From: a virus | Reading direction: 5' to 3' (one strand) | Virus record (IMG/VR): IMGVR_UViG_3300025853_000022 | Coordinates: 1-33,712 of that record | DNA length: 33,712 bases | Shown: one piece after another, positions 1 to 33,712 of the stretch | Layout: the number at the start of each line of letters is the position of its first letter | Position numbering within the stretch: the first letter of the stretch is position 1 | Notes under the pieces: model-generated | Database searches by the model: none | Seen by the model: the letters and a program-made list of their open reading frames with translations, nothing else | Told to the model about the DNA's origin: nothing | Made by a program: the position numbers and the translations under genes

Positions 1-93
1 CTACCCCTAGCTCATAGTGAGCTACCCCCCCTAGCTCATAATGAGCTACCCCTAGCTCATAGTGAGCTACCCCACCTAGCTCATAGTGAGCTA
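1..93 (+). repeat. Origin iterons, left-end block
   Basis: Four more copies of the 17-bp palindrome start at 8, 32, 53 and 77, with the same 24/21/24 spacing. The copy at 8 is the same as the one at 33691 if the 29-base end overlap is merged, which gives at least 12 copies in the closed molecule. The last copy is followed by an A-rich, C-poor stretch. Copy number may be underestimated, because arrays like this collapse in assembly. Confidence 0.85.
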
Positions 94-339
94 CAATACA
101 ACCTAGATAACAACCTAGATAACAACCCTTCTTCAACTCCACTCTCAACAGAGGAGAGCAATGGAGAGGTCAATGGAGAGTTTGACAGGATGATTAATGA
201 GCTCGCTGAAATGACTCACTGCTCATTGGACGAAGCGAGAGGACGAGTTGAGCATTACGCCTCTGTACGCCAGATTAGTCAGCTAGATGCATTAAGGGCT
301 ATTCAGAACATGACCGCAAAGATGAGGAGAGCAAGATGA
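1..339 (+). CDS. O-like replication initiator, C-terminal part (continues from 33712)
   Basis: The frame is open from base 1 with no start codon and ends in TGA at 337-339, overlapping the ATG of the helicase loader. It gives 112 residues. The first 31 continue the LAHSELP repeats. Next comes an Asn/Asp-rich stretch (QYNLDNNLDNNP) encoded by a 12-bp tandem repeat. A polar Ser/Glu linker follows, and then a compact helical tail with DRMINELAEMTHCSLDEA and a basic end (MTAKMRRAR). In lambda O the C-terminal domain contacts the helicase loader P. A similar role is plausible here because the loader gene is translationally coupled just downstream, but this is inference. The gene is split only by where the circular map was cut. 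Confidence 0.8.
   Translation, partial: LPLAHSELPPLAHNELPLAHSELPHLAHSELQYNLDNNLDNNPSSTPLSTEESNGEVNGEFDRMINELAEMTHCSLDEARGRVEHYASVRQISQLDALRAIQNMTAKMRRAR
100..123 (+). repeat. 12-bp tandem repeat beside the iterons (possible unwinding element)
   Basis: AACCTAGATAAC occurs twice in tandem, seven bases after the last iteron. The stretch is richer in A and T than its surroundings and stays in frame, encoding NLDNNLDNN-type residues. An A+T-rich element next to iterons is where strands open in lambda-type origins. The position fits that role here, but the function is inferred. Confidence 0.45.
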
Positions 340-1259
340 GTGAGATGACTAGATTGGGGGCAGCTCAGGAATGGGCCGCGATCCGGAGCCAGCTAAGAGA
401 CCTCCAAGCAACCTACCAGCTTTTCAAGCGGGACGAGCCACCGAAGCAGTTGTTGGACTTTACTCATTTAACTCACTCCAATCTAGAGGATCAAGGATGG
501 ATTGACGAAGCAGCCCCTCGCCTCACAGTCAAAGAGATTCCTCTCTGTGGTCGCTGTGATAACGGCTGGCTCAGAGTACCCGACACGCGCCACACAGTTA
601 GGCTGTGTCCCCATTGTGAGGTACCAAGACGAAAGGCCAAGCAACTCAACAAACTCTCTCTGCCAGCTGATGCCATAGGGATGAGTCTCTCTAAGTATGA
701 GTGGGATAGTCCGGCGCAACAGCAGTTGATTCTCTCTATGCTCGCTCACCTCTCAGGCTCAGAGGTAAAGCCTCATTGCCCTTCTGCCTATATGTGGGGG
801 CCTCCTGGCAACGGCAAGACTTCACTGCTTTACAGCCTTGCTAGGTGGGGATGCTTTCAGGGATTGCGCGTACAGTACACCACACACACGCGAATTATGA
901 ACGGCATCAAGGAGAGCTTCAATGACGTGAAGAGACGAGAGGCCCTAGCGGCTTGGCTTGATCGCACAGACCTTCTGTTGCTCGATGAGCTCGGAGGACT
1001 AGGGGGAAAGGCCAACGCCACCCAATGGTACACATCGACCACAACGGAAATCATAGGCACGATTTATGAGCGTTGGGCTGGTGGGAAGCTTGGAGTGATC
1101 ATCACCTCTAATCTTAACCCGTCAGAACTAGCGCGCCTATTTGATCGCAATGCCGCTGTGCTCTCTCGCTTGCGCTCGATGTTCGGGTCACCCCTTCAGA
1201 TGGTTGGGCCTGACCGGCGAATCACGGGCAATGAGCGCCTCTCTGAATGGGGGTTGTGA
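336..1259 (+). CDS. DnaC-like helicase loader (AAA+ ATPase)
   Basis: A 307-residue AAA+ protein of the DnaC/IstB type, expected to load the host replicative helicase at the phage origin. Residues 71-94 carry two CxxC pairs (CGRC and CPHC) that could bind zinc. Walker A is GPPGNGKTS at 155-163 and Walker B is LLLLDE at 213-218. A sensor-type stretch IITSNLNP lies near 255-262, and an arginine-rich RLRSMF near 278-283 fits the DnaC signature. Its ATG overlaps the stop of the initiator gene (ATGA), so the two are probably translated together. No helicase gene is present, which fits use of host DnaB. The zinc-binding N-terminus resembles that of DnaI/DnaC-like loaders, but the helicase-binding part cannot be confirmed by eye. 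Confidence 0.88.
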   Translation: MSEMTRLGAAQEWAAIRSQLRDLQATYQLFKRDEPPKQLLDFTHLTHSNLEDQGWIDEAAPRLTVKEIPLCGRCDNGWLRVPDTRHTVRLCPHCEVPRRKAKQLNKLSLPADAIGMSLSKYEWDSPAQQQLILSMLAHLSGSEVKPHCPSAYMWGPPGNGKTSLLYSLARWGCFQGLRVQYTTHTRIMNGIKESFNDVKRREALAAWLDRTDLLLLDELGGLGGKANATQWYTSTTTEIIGTIYERWAGGKLGVIITSNLNPSELARLFDRNAAVLSRLRSMFGSPLQMVGPDRRITGNERLSEWGL

Positions 1260-1623: not shown

Positions 1624-1875
1624 ATGGACGCCTTCAAGAGATGGGCCTTGGAGGCGTCCTTATCACTAGGGGATTTTTTAATGACTGTAAGAAACAAGGT
1701 TTGTCATGTACGCCTAAGTTGCGCGGAAGCTAGCTTCGTGGACGGCGAGGCCATGCGGCTAGGCGCCAATCGCTCTGATGTTATTCGAGCGCTGATCTCG
1801 TTGCTGTGGGAAGCCAGGAAGAACAATGGAGAGCTCACCACTCGACTAGAGAAAGAACTGAAGCATTATGATTAA
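1624..1875 (+). CDS. Ribbon-helix-helix-like small DNA-binding protein
   Basis: The ATG at 1624, preceded by AAGGCGAAG, gives 83 residues. A TTG at 1600 and an ATG at 1681 are alternative starts. The segment KVCHVRLSCAEASFVDGEA followed by MRLGANRSDVIRALISLLWE has the strand-helix-turn-helix pattern of the Arc/MetJ/CopG family, where the strand contacts DNA and the protein dimerises. The gene is followed by ssb with an eight-base overlap. It may regulate the divergent pair around the inverted repeat at 1568. Family membership is by pattern only, so moderate confidence. Confidence 0.6.
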   Translation: MDAFKRWALEASLSLGDFLMTVRNKVCHVRLSCAEASFVDGEAMRLGANRSDVIRALISLLWEARKNNGELTTRLEKELKHYD

Positions 1876-2248
1876 CTCAATCCAGCTGCTTGGGAATCTT
1901 GGCAAGGATCCAGAAATGAGGACTACGCCAGCCGGCCAAAGCTACTGTTACTTTTCTTTGGCCACCAACTCATCTCGTCAAGTTGATGGCGCTTGGGTCA
2001 CAGACACAGAGTGGCACAACATCAAGCTGTGGGGTAAGTCTGCAACTAGAGCGAGCGAGCAACTTAAGAAAGGCGCTCGCTGTTACGTAGAGGGCAAAAT
2101 ATCAAGCTATGAGGTAGACGGCCAAAGGCGAATTGAGATCAAGGCTTACAGCTTCAAGGCACTAGACAAGCTTGATCACCTTCTCCCGCCGGATGGGCCG
2201 CCAACCTATCAGTCATCTCCTGGCTTTGGGTCATGGAGTGCGCCATGA
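1868..2248 (+). CDS. ssb: Single-stranded DNA-binding protein
   Basis: A 126-residue SSB with a single OB fold. The start MINSIQLLGNLGKDPEMRTT is the classic SSB N-terminus. It is followed by FSLATNSS, then TEWHNIKLWGKSA and KKGARCYVEGKIS, which are typical OB-fold strands. The usual C-terminal acidic tip (DDDIPF-like), used to recruit host repair and replication proteins, is missing. The protein ends in PGFGSWSAP after a short Pro/Ser linker, so it may not dock host partners in the usual way. It would coat single strands during replication and RecT-mediated annealing. The gene overlaps both neighbours, so it belongs to the rightward operon. Confidence 0.92.
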   Translation: MINSIQLLGNLGKDPEMRTTPAGQSYCYFSLATNSSRQVDGAWVTDTEWHNIKLWGKSATRASEQLKKGARCYVEGKISSYEVDGQRRIEIKAYSFKALDKLDHLLPPDGPPTYQSSPGFGSWSAP

Positions 2249-29097: not shown

Positions 29098-29583
29098 AGC
29101 GCGGCGTTTGTGGTACTGCTCACGCCAATACTGCCTGACAGCCTCGATCTGTTCGGCGCTCATGGCGGCTCTTTTTCGCCGGCGATATTCTCTTTGGTAT
29201 TGGCGGCGAGCCTCTAGCTCTTCCTCGCTCATGCTCAGTAGCTTGAGCTTGCGATAGACTCTTTCGTCCTCGCGTTGCTCTTCAGTCATGTTGGCTCTAC
29301 GCTCGCGGTCATATTCGCGCTTATATTGGCGCATAGCCTCACGCTGTGTAGGTGTCATGTTGGCGTACCATTGGCGCTGATATTCACGCTTAGCCTCTCG
29401 CTGTTCTTCAGTCATCTGCCTTCTCTTTTCATTTTGTTCTTTGCGCTCCTGCTCGCTCATTTGGGCGCGTCTTTGGCGCTGGCGCTCGACCTTGGCTTTA
29501 CGTTGCTCCGGTGTCATCCTTGCATAGTGAAGGCGCGCATATTGACGATTACGCTCTTTCTCGGCTTCGAGATCTTCAGTCAT
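29071..29583 (-). CDS. Highly charged helical repeat protein 2
   Basis: A 170-residue protein made almost entirely of Arg, Lys, Glu, Gln and Tyr in helical repeats of about 19-23 residues. Each begins with a Met-Thr/Ser-x-Glu-Gln step (RMTPEQRKAKVERQRQRR, QMTEEQREAKREYQRQWY, NMTEEQREDERVYRKLK, AMSAEQIEAVRQYWREQ). The design recalls STPR-type DNA-binding repeats, but the unit is shorter. No catalytic or membrane segment is present. The ATG overlaps the end of repeat protein 1. It is the last gene of the leftward operon, and its stop lies inside the convergent rightward gene. Nucleic-acid binding is inferred from charge. Confidence 0.72.
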   Translation of the reverse strand: MTEDLEAEKERNRQYARLHYARMTPEQRKAKVERQRQRRAQMSEQERKEQNEKRRQMTEEQREAKREYQRQWYANMTPTQREAMRQYKREYDRERRANMTEEQREDERVYRKLKLLSMSEEELEARRQYQREYRRRKRAAMSAEQIEAVRQYWREQYHKRRALLSNPKQS

Positions 29584-30352
29584 CTGCCTTCTCTTTTCTT
29601 TTGTGGTACTGCTTGCGCCTATATTCGCGCTGATATTCGCGCTGATATTCGCGCCAGGCCTCTAGCTGTTCGGGAGTCATGTTGGCGTACCATTGGCGCC
29701 GATATTCACGCTTAGCCTCTAGCTGTTCGGGAGTCATGTTGGCGCGCCACTTGCGGTCATGCTCACGCTTAGCCTCTCGCTGTTCGGGAGTCATGTTCGC
29801 GCGCCACTTGCGCCTATATTCGCGCTCAGCCTCTCGCTGTTCGGGAGTCATGTTGGCGCGGCGCTTGCGCTTATATTCGCGCTCAGCCTCTCGCTGTTCG
29901 GGAGTCATGTTGGCGCGCCACTTGCGCTGATATTCGCGCCTAGCCTCTAGCTGTTCGGGAGTCATGTTGGCGCGGCGCTTGCGCTTATATTCGCGCTCAG
30001 CCTCTCGCTGTTGTCGGTGATATTCCCTCTGTTGAGCGTAATAAGCGGCACGCTCCTCTTCACTCATATTGGCGATCTTTTCCCGGCGTGACTGGCGCCT
30101 CTTCGCTCGCCTCTGCTCTTGCTCTTCAGGGCTCAGGCTCTGCCAGTAGAGGCGTTGTTGTAGCGCCATCATTCTTCGATCCTCATCAGTCCGATTAGCA
30201 GCATATTGACGTTGCCTCATCTTGTGGCGCTCGCGGTAAGCATCCAGCTCTTCTGGCGTCATTCGAGCTCTACGCTTGCGCTGATACTCTCTGTGATAGG
30301 CTCGCCGTCTCTCAGCCTGTTCCTCTTCAGTGTATATCTTGTGGCGTCCCAT
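29576..30352 (-). CDS. Highly charged helical repeat protein 1
   Basis: A 258-residue protein. The N-terminus (MGRHKIYTEEEQAERRRAYH) leads into repeats whose core unit is 19 residues, ANMTPEQREAEREYKRKRR. Six copies near residues 125-240 are almost perfect, with more diverged ones before them. Predicted structure is one long, very basic and acidic helix with a regular Met-Thr-Pro-Glu break. It lacks Cys and has no hydrophobic core, so it may bind nucleic acid or fold on a partner. The ATG overlaps the stop of the RecT-like gene (TGATG), so it is probably translationally coupled to it. This links it to recombination or DNA packaging by context only. Confidence 0.75.
   Translation of the reverse strand: MGRHKIYTEEEQAERRRAYHREYQRKRRARMTPEELDAYRERHKMRQRQYAANRTDEDRRMMALQQRLYWQSLSPEEQEQRRAKRRQSRREKIANMSEEERAAYYAQQREYHRQQREAEREYKRKRRANMTPEQLEARREYQRKWRANMTPEQREAEREYKRKRRANMTPEQREAEREYRRKWRANMTPEQREAKREHDRKWRANMTPEQLEAKREYRRQWYANMTPEQLEAWREYQREYQREYRRKQYHKRKEKADD
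29666..30007 (-). repeat. 57-bp tandem repeat inside repeat protein 1
   Basis: The marker CTGTTCGGGAGTCATGTT (plus strand) recurs at 29666, 29723, 29780, 29837, 29894 and 29951, exactly 57 bases apart, so each unit encodes 19 residues. Variation between units lies mainly at the charged or aromatic positions. Copy number could change by slippage or by RecT-type annealing. Confidence 0.9.
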
Positions 30353-31497
30353 CAGGAGGCTGAGCCCATCTCCATGTCATCATCGAGGATCGATTGAACA
30401 TAGTCAAAGGCCGTCCAGTCCATGGGGTTCATCTTCTTGAGGACATTTAAAGCCACCTCTCTGCGATCCTTATCTTTGATCATCTCGCTAAGCTTGAGCG
30501 TCTCCATGAAGGCGCCACAGGGGAGGCGTGGCCCAAGGTGCTGGACGCTCAAAAACTTGGTCAGTGGTAGCTGATCCCATAGTGCTCTGTGGATGGGCTC
30601 AACCTCTCTCATGGAGCCATTGAACCAATGCTGAGAGATGGAGTTATCCATGAGTGCATGAGGAGCACAGCGAGAGTAGAAGAGCGCCTCTCTCTGTTGA
30701 GGAGTTAGCGAGGTTGGAGACTCCACCGTTTCACTGATGAAGGCCACAGCGTCCTCAAGGTTTACTCCCCATGAGCGACAGGCCTTTGTCAGCGCGTCAT
30801 CACTGCTCCAATCATACAGCCTGTTGGGCTCTGGCTGTGACTGTGGCGGCTGTGACTGTGGCGGCTCTGACTGCTGAGGAGCTCGCTGAGATTGCTGAGG
30901 AGCTCGCTGAGATTGCTGAGGAGCTCGCTGAGACTGAGGTGGCCTAGATGGTAGGTCAGTGCCAAGAGCATGAGCTGTGATCACATCTCTCTCATGGTCG
31001 CTCATTGATGTGTTATCAGCGATCTCATCAGCAGAGTATACCCCACTCACTGCATCTGGAAAGGTGGCCCGAAGCCCTAGGGTGAGCGCTCGGGCTCTCA
31101 GCATCTGCTGAGGCATCTGTTGCCAGTTTCGGTTTCTCGTGAGCCCTTGTTGTTGGGCCATCTGAATCGTGAAGCTGTACGTATGGACAATCTCATCAGG
31201 CTCATCTGTACGAGCCATCTCAAGAGAGCAGACCTCAGCGCTCCACTCTGTAATTCGCAGATAACGGCAAAGGCCTGAGCGTCTGCATATGCCGGCCATA
31301 GCGTCTGCGTTAAGCGTTGGCTTGCCCTTCAGGACATAGCCTTGAGTCATGGTTAAGCCAAGATCGCCTCCAAAGTGATGGCCGAAGGCAGCGTGAAGCT
31401 GGAGCAGATCCATGGGCTTGCCGTTGCTTAATAGGTTGCTCATATCGAGCGCCTCTTGTACTGAGGCTGGATTCCATATAGAAGTCTTAGTTGTCAT
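30352..31497 (-). CDS. RecT-like single-strand annealing protein
   Basis: A 381-residue protein with AAGGTCACACC before the ATG. Residues 15-165 follow the RecT family: LDMSNLLSNGKPMDLL, GLTMTQGYVLKGKPTLNADA, MAGICRRSGLCRYLRITEWS, SFTIQMAQQQGLTRNRNWQQ, then MLRARALTLGLRATFPDAVS and GVYSADEI. It should anneal complementary single strands during phage recombination. Residues 185-225 are a low-complexity SQRAPQQ/Pro linker made of 21-bp DNA repeats. Residues 226-381 form a separate helical domain not seen in short RecT proteins. No exonuclease partner gene was found beside it. SSB at 1868 would be its working partner. Confidence 0.85.
   Translation of the reverse strand: MTTKTSIWNPASVQEALDMSNLLSNGKPMDLLQLHAAFGHHFGGDLGLTMTQGYVLKGKPTLNADAMAGICRRSGLCRYLRITEWSAEVCSLEMARTDEPDEIVHTYSFTIQMAQQQGLTRNRNWQQMPQQMLRARALTLGLRATFPDAVSGVYSADEIADNTSMSDHERDVITAHALGTDLPSRPPQSQRAPQQSQRAPQQSQRAPQQSEPPQSQPPQSQPEPNRLYDWSSDDALTKACRSWGVNLEDAVAFISETVESPTSLTPQQREALFYSRCAPHALMDNSISQHWFNGSMREVEPIHRALWDQLPLTKFLSVQHLGPRLPCGAFMETLKLSEMIKDKDRREVALNVLKKMNPMDWTAFDYVQSILDDDMEMGSAS
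30872..30934 (-). repeat. 21-bp tandem repeat in the RecT-like linker
   Basis: Three tandem 21-bp units start at 30872, 30893 and 30914. They encode the SQRAPQQ heptapeptide three times, and the adjoining Pro/Ser/Gln stretch continues the same flavour. The linker probably sets the distance between the annealing core and the C-terminal domain. Length may vary between relatives. Confidence 0.85.
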
Positions 31498-32593: not shown

Positions 32594-32682
32594 TAAGATG
32601 GTTAGGTCACCAGGTCATCGTCTCGGTAGTGTCAAAGAGTTGAGGTGTTAGGGCTGGCCACCGTGGGCCTGATCACCTCATC

Positions 32683-32699
32683 TGTCAAGTAGCTTGACA
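32683..32699. promoter_or_regulatory. Operator-like palindrome 1
   Basis: TGTCAAGTAGCTTGACA has perfect 7-bp arms around a TAG centre. It contains a TTGACA that could be a -35 box, so a bound repressor would block polymerase. The likely binder is the HTH protein encoded at 32797. Confidence 0.65.
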
Positions 32700-32713
32700 T
32701 AGGCACATGAATC

Positions 32714-32730
32714 TGTCAAGCTACTTTACA
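32714..32730. promoter_or_regulatory. Operator-like palindrome 2
   Basis: TGTCAAGCTACTTTACA matches operator 1 with one arm mismatch and an inverted centre. Its start is 31 bases from operator 1, about three helical turns, so two dimers would lie on the same face of the DNA. Confidence 0.6.
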
Positions 32731-32796
32731 ACAGGTGGTCAACTTTTTTCACCTGACACCTACTCAAGCCCTAGATATAGGGCACAAGGAGACATC

Positions 32797-33231
32797 ATGA
32801 CACCAACTAAACTGGCTCACCTCAAGTCCATGACCTCAATCTCAGCGCTCGCGCTGACTGCCGGCGTGAGCCGTCAGACGGTCTACACTGCTCTCAATCG
32901 CACCCTGTTTCCCTCTAAAGAGGTTGCTGTTCGGTTGGCATCTGCGGCCTGTGCTCTCTGCGACACCAACGCCTTTGAGGCCCATGACTTTAACCCGAGC
33001 ATCCCCAAGTCAATTCGCAACCTGACTGATCAGCGCTTCGTCGTCACAGACTTAGATCTCAAGTCTCACGTATGGGCCACGGCTGAGGAGCTCCTCTTAG
33101 AGTACAGTGATGATATCGATCTTATCTCAGCGCTTCATGATTGTGTCAGTGACGGTGAGCGCCAGCTTGTCCACGGGTATCTTCTCGTTGAGCTAGACAA
33201 CAGCTCAGATGACGATCTGAGTGACGTATGA
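32797..33231 (+). CDS. Helix-turn-helix regulator, first rightward gene
   Basis: The ATG at 32797 with AAGGAGACATC gives 144 residues. An upstream in-frame ATG at 32707 would run through the second operator and is less likely. Residues about 13-34 (TSISALALTAGVSRQTVYTA) form a Cro/CI-like HTH, followed by a second helix pair (SKEVAVRLASAACALCD). The C-terminal half is acidic (DLDLKSHVWATAEELLLEY to DNSSDDDLSDV) and may dimerise. It lies beside two operator-like palindromes in a pL/pR-like region, so it is probably the phage's main early switch. It could be a Cro-type or an activator. No separate CI-like repressor or integrase is present in the window. Confidence 0.7.
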   Translation: MTPTKLAHLKSMTSISALALTAGVSRQTVYTALNRTLFPSKEVAVRLASAACALCDTNAFEAHDFNPSIPKSIRNLTDQRFVVTDLDLKSHVWATAEELLLEYSDDIDLISALHDCVSDGERQLVHGYLLVELDNSSDDDLSDV

Positions 33232-33712
33232 AAGAGGTACAGATTCGGGCGGCCATATATAGCTTGACGCTCAAGCCAAACACTAAGCTTACCCTGTTGG
33301 GTGTTTTGTCTGTGGTCGACTGGAAGACGTTCAGCGGCCCTTGCTCCTCGCGTGATGTGGGCAAGCGGATGAGCATGAAGGAAACATCTGTAAGGCGTTC
33401 TTTCAAAGAGTTGAATGAGATGGGCCTTATAAGGCGTTCGGCATCAAGGCGAGCGGCTGACCAGCATCACAGAGCTGTGACCTATCTAGAGGTTCAGGCC
33501 ATCTTAGACCTAGCTCATAATGAGCTACCCCCCCTAGCTCATAGTGAGCTACCCCTAGCTCATAATGAGCTACCCCCCCTAGCTCATAATGAGCTACCCC
33601 TAGCTCATAGTGAGCTCCCCCCCCTAGCTCATAATGAGCTACCCCTAGCTCATAGTGAGCTACCCCCCCTAGCTCATAATGAGCTACCCCTAGCTCATAG
33701 TGAGCTACCCCC
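33228..33712 (+). CDS. O-like replication initiator, N-terminal part (continues at base 1)
   Basis: This is the first 161 codons of a gene that runs off the window end. The ATG overlaps the stop of the HTH regulator (ATGA). Residues 1 to about 95 look like a winged helix: a helical stretch with the segment SSRDVGKRMSMKETSVRRSFKELNEMGLIRR, which has the shape of a recognition helix plus wing seen in phage replication initiators. From about residue 95 the frame runs through tandem DNA repeats that encode LAHNELPPLAHSELP units without a stop. The last 29 bases match bases 1-29 in the same frame, so the gene continues at the window start and ends at 339, for about 264 residues in all. The next gene is a DnaC-type loader, as in the lambda O-P pair. 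The role of origin recognition is inferred from fold, iterons and neighbours. Confidence in the reading frame is high and in the function good. Confidence 0.82.
   Translation, partial: MKEVQIRAAIYSLTLKPNTKLTLLGVLSVVDWKTFSGPCSSRDVGKRMSMKETSVRRSFKELNEMGLIRRSASRRAADQHHRAVTYLEVQAILDLAHNELPPLAHSELPLAHNELPPLAHNELPLAHSELPPLAHNELPLAHSELPPLAHNELPLAHSELP
33511..33712 (+). repeat. Origin iterons inside the initiator gene (right-end block)
   Basis: Nine copies of a 17-bp palindromic unit start at 33511, 33535, 33556, 33580, 33601, 33625, 33646, 33670 and 33691. Spacing alternates 24 and 21 bp. One form is TAGCTCATAATGAGCTA, with 8-bp arms around a central A. The other is TAGCTCATAGTGAGCTA, with 7-bp arms around TAG. 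The copy at 33601 ends in C instead of A. Both spacings are multiples of three, so the frame stays open. Units are separated by runs of C. Iterons inside the initiator gene are the lambda-type origin design, so this is the probable replication origin. Confidence 0.85.

Follow-up and report, generated by a model that had tools for sequence, protein, structure and literature searches.

A regular array of palindromic iterons inside a phage initiator gene as a probable lambda-type replication origin

In bacteriophage lambda, the replication origin lies within the central part of the initiator gene, where the iterons are inverted repeats bound by initiator dimers and an AT-rich region follows on their 3' side (PMC7466680, PMC6022878, PMC5043065), and the O initiator itself joins an N-terminal DNA-binding domain to a C-terminal loader-binding domain via a flexible linker (PMC6022878). 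Bacillus phage SPP1 is organized along similar lines, with an oriL in gene 38 that places initiator-binding repeats and an AT-rich unwinding element inside the gene, and with a loader in the pathway (PMC6316719). Here, we examine a comparable arrangement in IMG/VR record IMGVR_UViG_3300025853_000022, a contig of an uncultured phage whose entire 33,712 nucleotides we refer to as the window. The window carries an array of palindromic iterons within a gene for a putative replication initiator, and its anatomy makes it very probable that the array is a lambda-type theta-replication origin within its own initiator gene.

The array includes nine 17-bp palindromic iterons (TAGCTCATARTGAGCTA) at 33511..33707 on the plus strand, coding for LAH[NS]ELP(P), and four further iterons in the same frame at the other end of the contig (8..93, plus strand). 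A sequence-only reading of the window had counted at least 12 iterons between 33511 and 33712, an interval that holds nine. It had correctly noted spacings of 24 and 21 bp that are always multiples of three, a pattern that is strict at both contig ends (24, 21, 24, 21, 24, 21, 24, and 21 bp over 33511-33691; 24, 21, and 24 bp over 8-77) and keeps the copies in one frame. It had also described two alternating sequence types forming a 45-bp dimer. The period is indeed 45 bp (Tandem Repeats Finder score, 380), but the alternation of types is not strict: the right end reads N S N N S N S N S and the left end S N S S, where N and S stand for the central types AAT and AGT, and the copies at 33556 and 33580 are both AAT. 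The copy at 33601 ends in GAGCTC. The A-type iteron is a perfect odd palindrome, and all six perfect 17-bp odd palindromes in the window are A-type iterons, against a mean of 0.4 in shuffled sequence. There are 13 exact AGCTCN5GAGCT sites in the window, all within the array and none outside it, and the site is similarly confined to the array in the records of four related contigs (L009, L010, L011, and L063).

The contig breaks off within the array, and both of its ends belong to one gene and one reading frame. These ends are identical over 73 bp (1-73 and 33639-33711), after which a C/A mismatch follows. Since both lie in the array and share these 73 bp, the window contains at least 10 nonredundant iterons, which makes for an unusually large and perfectly regular array. 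A second relative, represented by L010 and L011 from one metagenome (22,821 and 10,756 bp), is also cut inside the array, and the break therefore looks like an assembly effect, with short-read contigs of this lineage breaking at the origin. The entire gene is present on one contig in L009, with a winged helix, 12 in-frame iterons, three AT-rich 12-mers, and a C-terminal domain; a single open reading frame (ORF) spans the whole array there, which places the iterons inside the initiator coding sequence.

Upstream of the array, the gene encodes an N-terminal winged-helix domain (33228..33509, plus strand) with a recognition helix at about KETSVRRSFKEL, as judged from the ORF, an AlphaFold model, and weak PHROG matches. 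The model is confident for the winged helix at residues 1-97 (predicted local distance difference test score, pLDDT, above 90 over most of residues 1-70), has a pLDDT of about 33 over the array, and places helices at residues 212-270. The iteron-encoded peptide is thus predicted to be a disordered linker joining two domains, and the C-terminal part (94..339, plus strand, with the stop codon at 337-339), which is predicted to be helical, is a candidate loader-contact domain. Two AT-rich 12-bp repeats (ACAACCTAGATA, coding LDNN) at 92..127 on the plus strand form a candidate DNA-unwinding element. Positions 92-121 form the gene's least stable 30-bp stretch, and stability is lower in only 19 of the 33683 stretches of this size in the window. 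The least stable 30 to 40 bp of the gene likewise lie directly 3' of the last iteron in L009, L073, L075, L021, and lambda.

Profile searches gave matches to O-like initiators that varied in strength among the window and its relatives. Matches of the window protein to O-like PHROG families were weak (phrog_345 at 0.0023, and phrog_391; E values of 0.002-0.01), with 3.7e-4 for L009, and homologues matched replication-initiator or O-like families at lower E values (L063, phrog_391 at 1.6e-5; L073, phrog_270 at 3.8e-9 and phrog_391 at 1.1e-8). A fold search among viral models matched replication protein O of phage Min27 (6.5e-6). In a Pfam search at E values up to 1, the window protein did not match the lambda replication protein O N-terminal family, and it is therefore not filed in that family. 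A PDB sequence search returned only generic winged helices (such as eS25 and MarR), as did structure comparison, and neither the full initiator nor the loader had a tblastn match among 50,697 phage records.

The locus resembles lambda in having inverted-repeat iterons in the middle of an initiator gene, the least stable DNA on their 3' side, and a similar mean pitch (22.3 bp in lambda versus 22.5 bp here). It differs in iteron number, as lambda has 4 iterons and Stx phages have 6 (PMC7466680), versus at least 10 here; in spacing, which at 20, 24, and 23 bp puts the lambda iterons in all three frames; and in the loader, which is P in lambda and a DnaC-like AAA+ protein here. SPP1 differs from the window in having a second origin, oriR, and repeats described as direct, and the likeness to its gp38 and gp39 is by description only. 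The O-like genes of L016, L018, L019, and L021 encode winged-helix initiators with intragenic AGCTCN5GAGCT palindromes, although their spacings include 22, 23, and 35 bp and their iterons, which leave two or three frames open, are translated in a mixture of frames. Iteron plasmids of the RepA/TrfA type have initiator-binding repeat arrays adjoining AT-rich DNA, whereas the window iterons are palindromic and intragenic. We considered a plasmid iteron initiator as an identity for the gene and rejected it, given the palindromic iterons and the lack of a plasmid Rep match in the Pfam search. Taken as a comparison of anatomy, these results support a lambda-ori-like layout of winged helix, palindromic iterons, least stable DNA 3' of them, and a loader next, and with it the earlier proposal that the DNA is both origin and coding sequence.

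Homologous initiators carry other iterons. In L073 and L075, nine GTGACN5GTCAC-type palindromes per gene (L073, 5295-5510; L075, 1778-1993) have mixed spacings (16, 41, 23, 22, and 26 bp), including several tight 16-bp pairs and 41-bp gaps, and occupy two frames, with nearly half in another frame; here a homologous initiator has another origin geometry, and its adjoining loader is about 65% identical. The iterons of L078 and L079 (TAGTGACAT...) encode the in-frame peptide PPSDIVTP, and those of L080 (TAGG(A/G)CA...TGACCTA) encode LGQNDLTP. Loaders are 88 to 95% identical within these groups, whereas winged helices are only 62 to 64% identical (L073 versus L078; L063 versus L080). Recognition helices KETSVRRSF and KDTSVRRAF pair with TAGCTCA, DARTVRRAF with TAGG(A/G)CA, NERSVKRAL with TAGTGAC, and NDRAIKRAL with GGTGAC. 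L063 and L080 have loaders that are 88% identical, and yet their iterons and recognition helices differ; L063 and the window have the iteron and the TSVRR helix in common, with loaders 60% identical. Iteron type tracks the recognition helix and not the loader, and although it comes from few lineages, this covariation is the strongest indirect evidence for the winged helix being what reads the iterons.

The sequence AGCTCATARTGAGCT occurs in 51 contigs, mostly as a single site, with at least two sites in L009, L010, L011, L063, and L049, the two of L049 being 4.5 kb apart. The peptide array alone gave only chance-level tblastn matches (E of 1 or worse, mostly T4-type terminases), and blastn of the iteron array in phages likewise found only chance-level matches. 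The detection we used found no clear intragenic iteron array in the O-like genes of three named phages (L086, L087, and L088). The O-like gene of Parageobacillus phage JGon-2020a (L085), in an unannotated record, has four copies of a GGTTCT palindrome at 1325-1404, two of them exact, spaced 21, 22, and 22 bp and thus not in a single frame.

The multiples of three can be understood from the iteron itself. Two of the three forward frames of TAGCTCATARTGAGCTA contain stops (TAG in one; TAA, TAG, or TGA in the other), and because only one stop-free forward frame remains inside an ORF, every intact copy is in one phase. All of the L080 sites, and most of those in L078/L079, likewise have a single open frame and are also locked to one phase, while two or three frames are open in the iterons of lambda, L016, L018, L019, and L021, which occur in mixed phases. 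The mean pitch is nevertheless similar, at 22.5 bp in the window, 22.4 bp in L009, 22.5 bp in L078/L079, 23.4 bp in L080, 22.3 bp in lambda and L016, and 22.5 bp in L018; L073 departs from this common spacing. It is a reasonable inference from the few arrays compared that the 21/24 alternation is a whole-codon approximation of a preferred pitch of 22 to 23 bp. More generally, there may be a frame-lock rule for intragenic origins, under which one open frame leads to one phase and to 21/24 spacing around 22.5 bp, and more open frames lead to scattered phases at the same mean pitch; having compared about ten arrays, we are evenly divided on whether this rule holds. A search of the open literature found no precedent for in-frame iteron peptide repeats, which is not proof that none exists.

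The sequence-only reading had expected the DNA signal and the regular peptide to be under constraint together. Winged-helix codons of the window and L009 differ at 40 of 66.8 synonymous sites (proportion of synonymous differences, pS, 0.60), whereas the palindrome arms show one change over the 28 iterons of the window, L009, L010, and L011, which affects the outermost base of a single copy. Variation within the array falls at the palindrome center (A/G, Asn/Ser) and in the spacer (mostly Pro/His), and it mostly alters the peptide. The iteron sequence also persists in L063, though the winged helix there is about 60% identical, with a pS of 0.7-0.8. The sixth and last L063 iteron (5411) lies in another codon phase, in which the inner palindrome and flank GAGCTACAATACAACC are kept at the DNA level and read as LIMSYNTT; the outer TAG, which would stop translation in that frame, has changed. 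The palindrome is kept despite the changed frame, and the DNA is therefore what is conserved. These comparisons support constraint on the DNA, with arms frozen at synonymous sites, and do not support constraint on the peptide, so that synonymous comparison among relatives and the search for out-of-frame repeats upheld one half of the expectation and not the other. Selection on both the palindrome and the LAHNELP peptide, for instance because the peptide binds a partner, is accordingly very improbable: regular in-frame heptad or octad peptides do recur in L078/L079 and L080, but the peptides of homologues are wholly different, some iterons of L073/L075 and L063 are in other frames, and the segment is predicted to be disordered. 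That coding DNA expanded in tandem by neutral processes, with no function in cis, is extremely unlikely for related reasons. The 45-bp unit and the homogenized copies do resemble products of slippage or unequal exchange; however, the arms are identical across genomes while nearby pS is 0.6-0.8, the L063 palindrome is kept in another frame, and homologues have unrelated palindromes at the equivalent position.

Other functions for the sites themselves can also be envisaged. The palindromes would suit a dimeric repressor, and a helix-turn-helix (HTH) gene lies upstream, so the array could be an operator bound by the initiator or by the HTH protein for transcription control and not for the start of replication. 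We consider this very unlikely, as the HTH gene has its own, different palindromes at 32683-32730, and the iterons adjoin the least stable DNA inside a replication gene beside a loader, as in lambda. Partition systems also use palindromic arrays, and a centromere-like partition or incompatibility site of a phage-plasmid would therefore look similar; we give this idea almost no credence, since no partition gene was called among the genes searched against PHROGs and the array lies inside the replication-initiator gene in all homologues.

For the origin, we propose that dimers of the winged-helix N-domain would bind each palindromic iteron and that, by analogy with lambda, a multi-dimer complex on sites spaced by about 22.5 bp would strain the adjoining AT-rich 12-mers and open them. 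The helical C terminus may then recruit the DnaC-like loader and the host replicative helicase, and the peptide repeat pattern would be a by-product of the single stop-free iteron frame. Several observations weigh against an origin of this type: at the sequence level, the window protein resembles O-like families only weakly, and none of its Pfam matches scored above the family cutoff; the loader is not lambda P; the array copies are homogenized, so the 28 iterons are not independent; and L063 has a weak AT-rich element on the 30- to 40-bp scale, with the low stability appearing there only at 60 bp. Iteron binding and origin activity are themselves inferred from anatomy.

The surrounding genes are those of a phage. 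Profile searches of Pfam and PHROG identified terminase, portal, major head protein, tape measure, endolysin, RecT-like, and SSB genes. The HTH repressor-like gene, called from its ORF and profile searches, lies directly upstream of the initiator (32707..33231, plus strand; likely true start, ATG at 32797), and its stop overlaps the initiator start codon; the same gene order is found in L009, L063, L073, and L078. Upstream of the HTH gene, the stretch at 32680-32730 contains a pair of near-palindromes, TGTCAAGTAGCTTGACA and TGTCAAGCTACTTTACA, which lie 14 nt apart and look like operators of that gene. Downstream of the initiator are a DnaC/IstB-like AAA+ helicase loader (336..1259, plus strand; phrog_50, E = 1.1e-28; IstB PF01695, 2.2e-11) and a single-strand DNA-binding protein of the replication module (1868..2248, plus strand; PF00436, 4.4e-25). 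A host search with the loader across genome collections gave no match. Two other genes contain repeats. On the minus strand at 29576-30352, 57-bp tandem repeats (6.6 copies) in a 258-amino-acid protein of unknown function encode 19-residue charged repeats (RKRRANMTPEQREAEREY-like), and the RecT-like gene (minus strand, 30352-31497) has 15-bp and 21-bp tandem repeats at 30833-30933, its product having repetitive glutamine-, serine-, and proline-rich stretches.

The window adds an uncultured phage lineage with what is very likely a lambda-type origin and an unusually large, regular iteron array, while the mechanism itself would be ordinary. Its relatives offer a natural series for studying site choice, with four iteron types and matching changes in one recognition helix beside near-identical loaders. 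A striking in-frame peptide array can arise from DNA sites obliged to avoid stop codons, and the frame-lock rule, if true, would explain why some phage initiators have regular peptide repeats and others have none.
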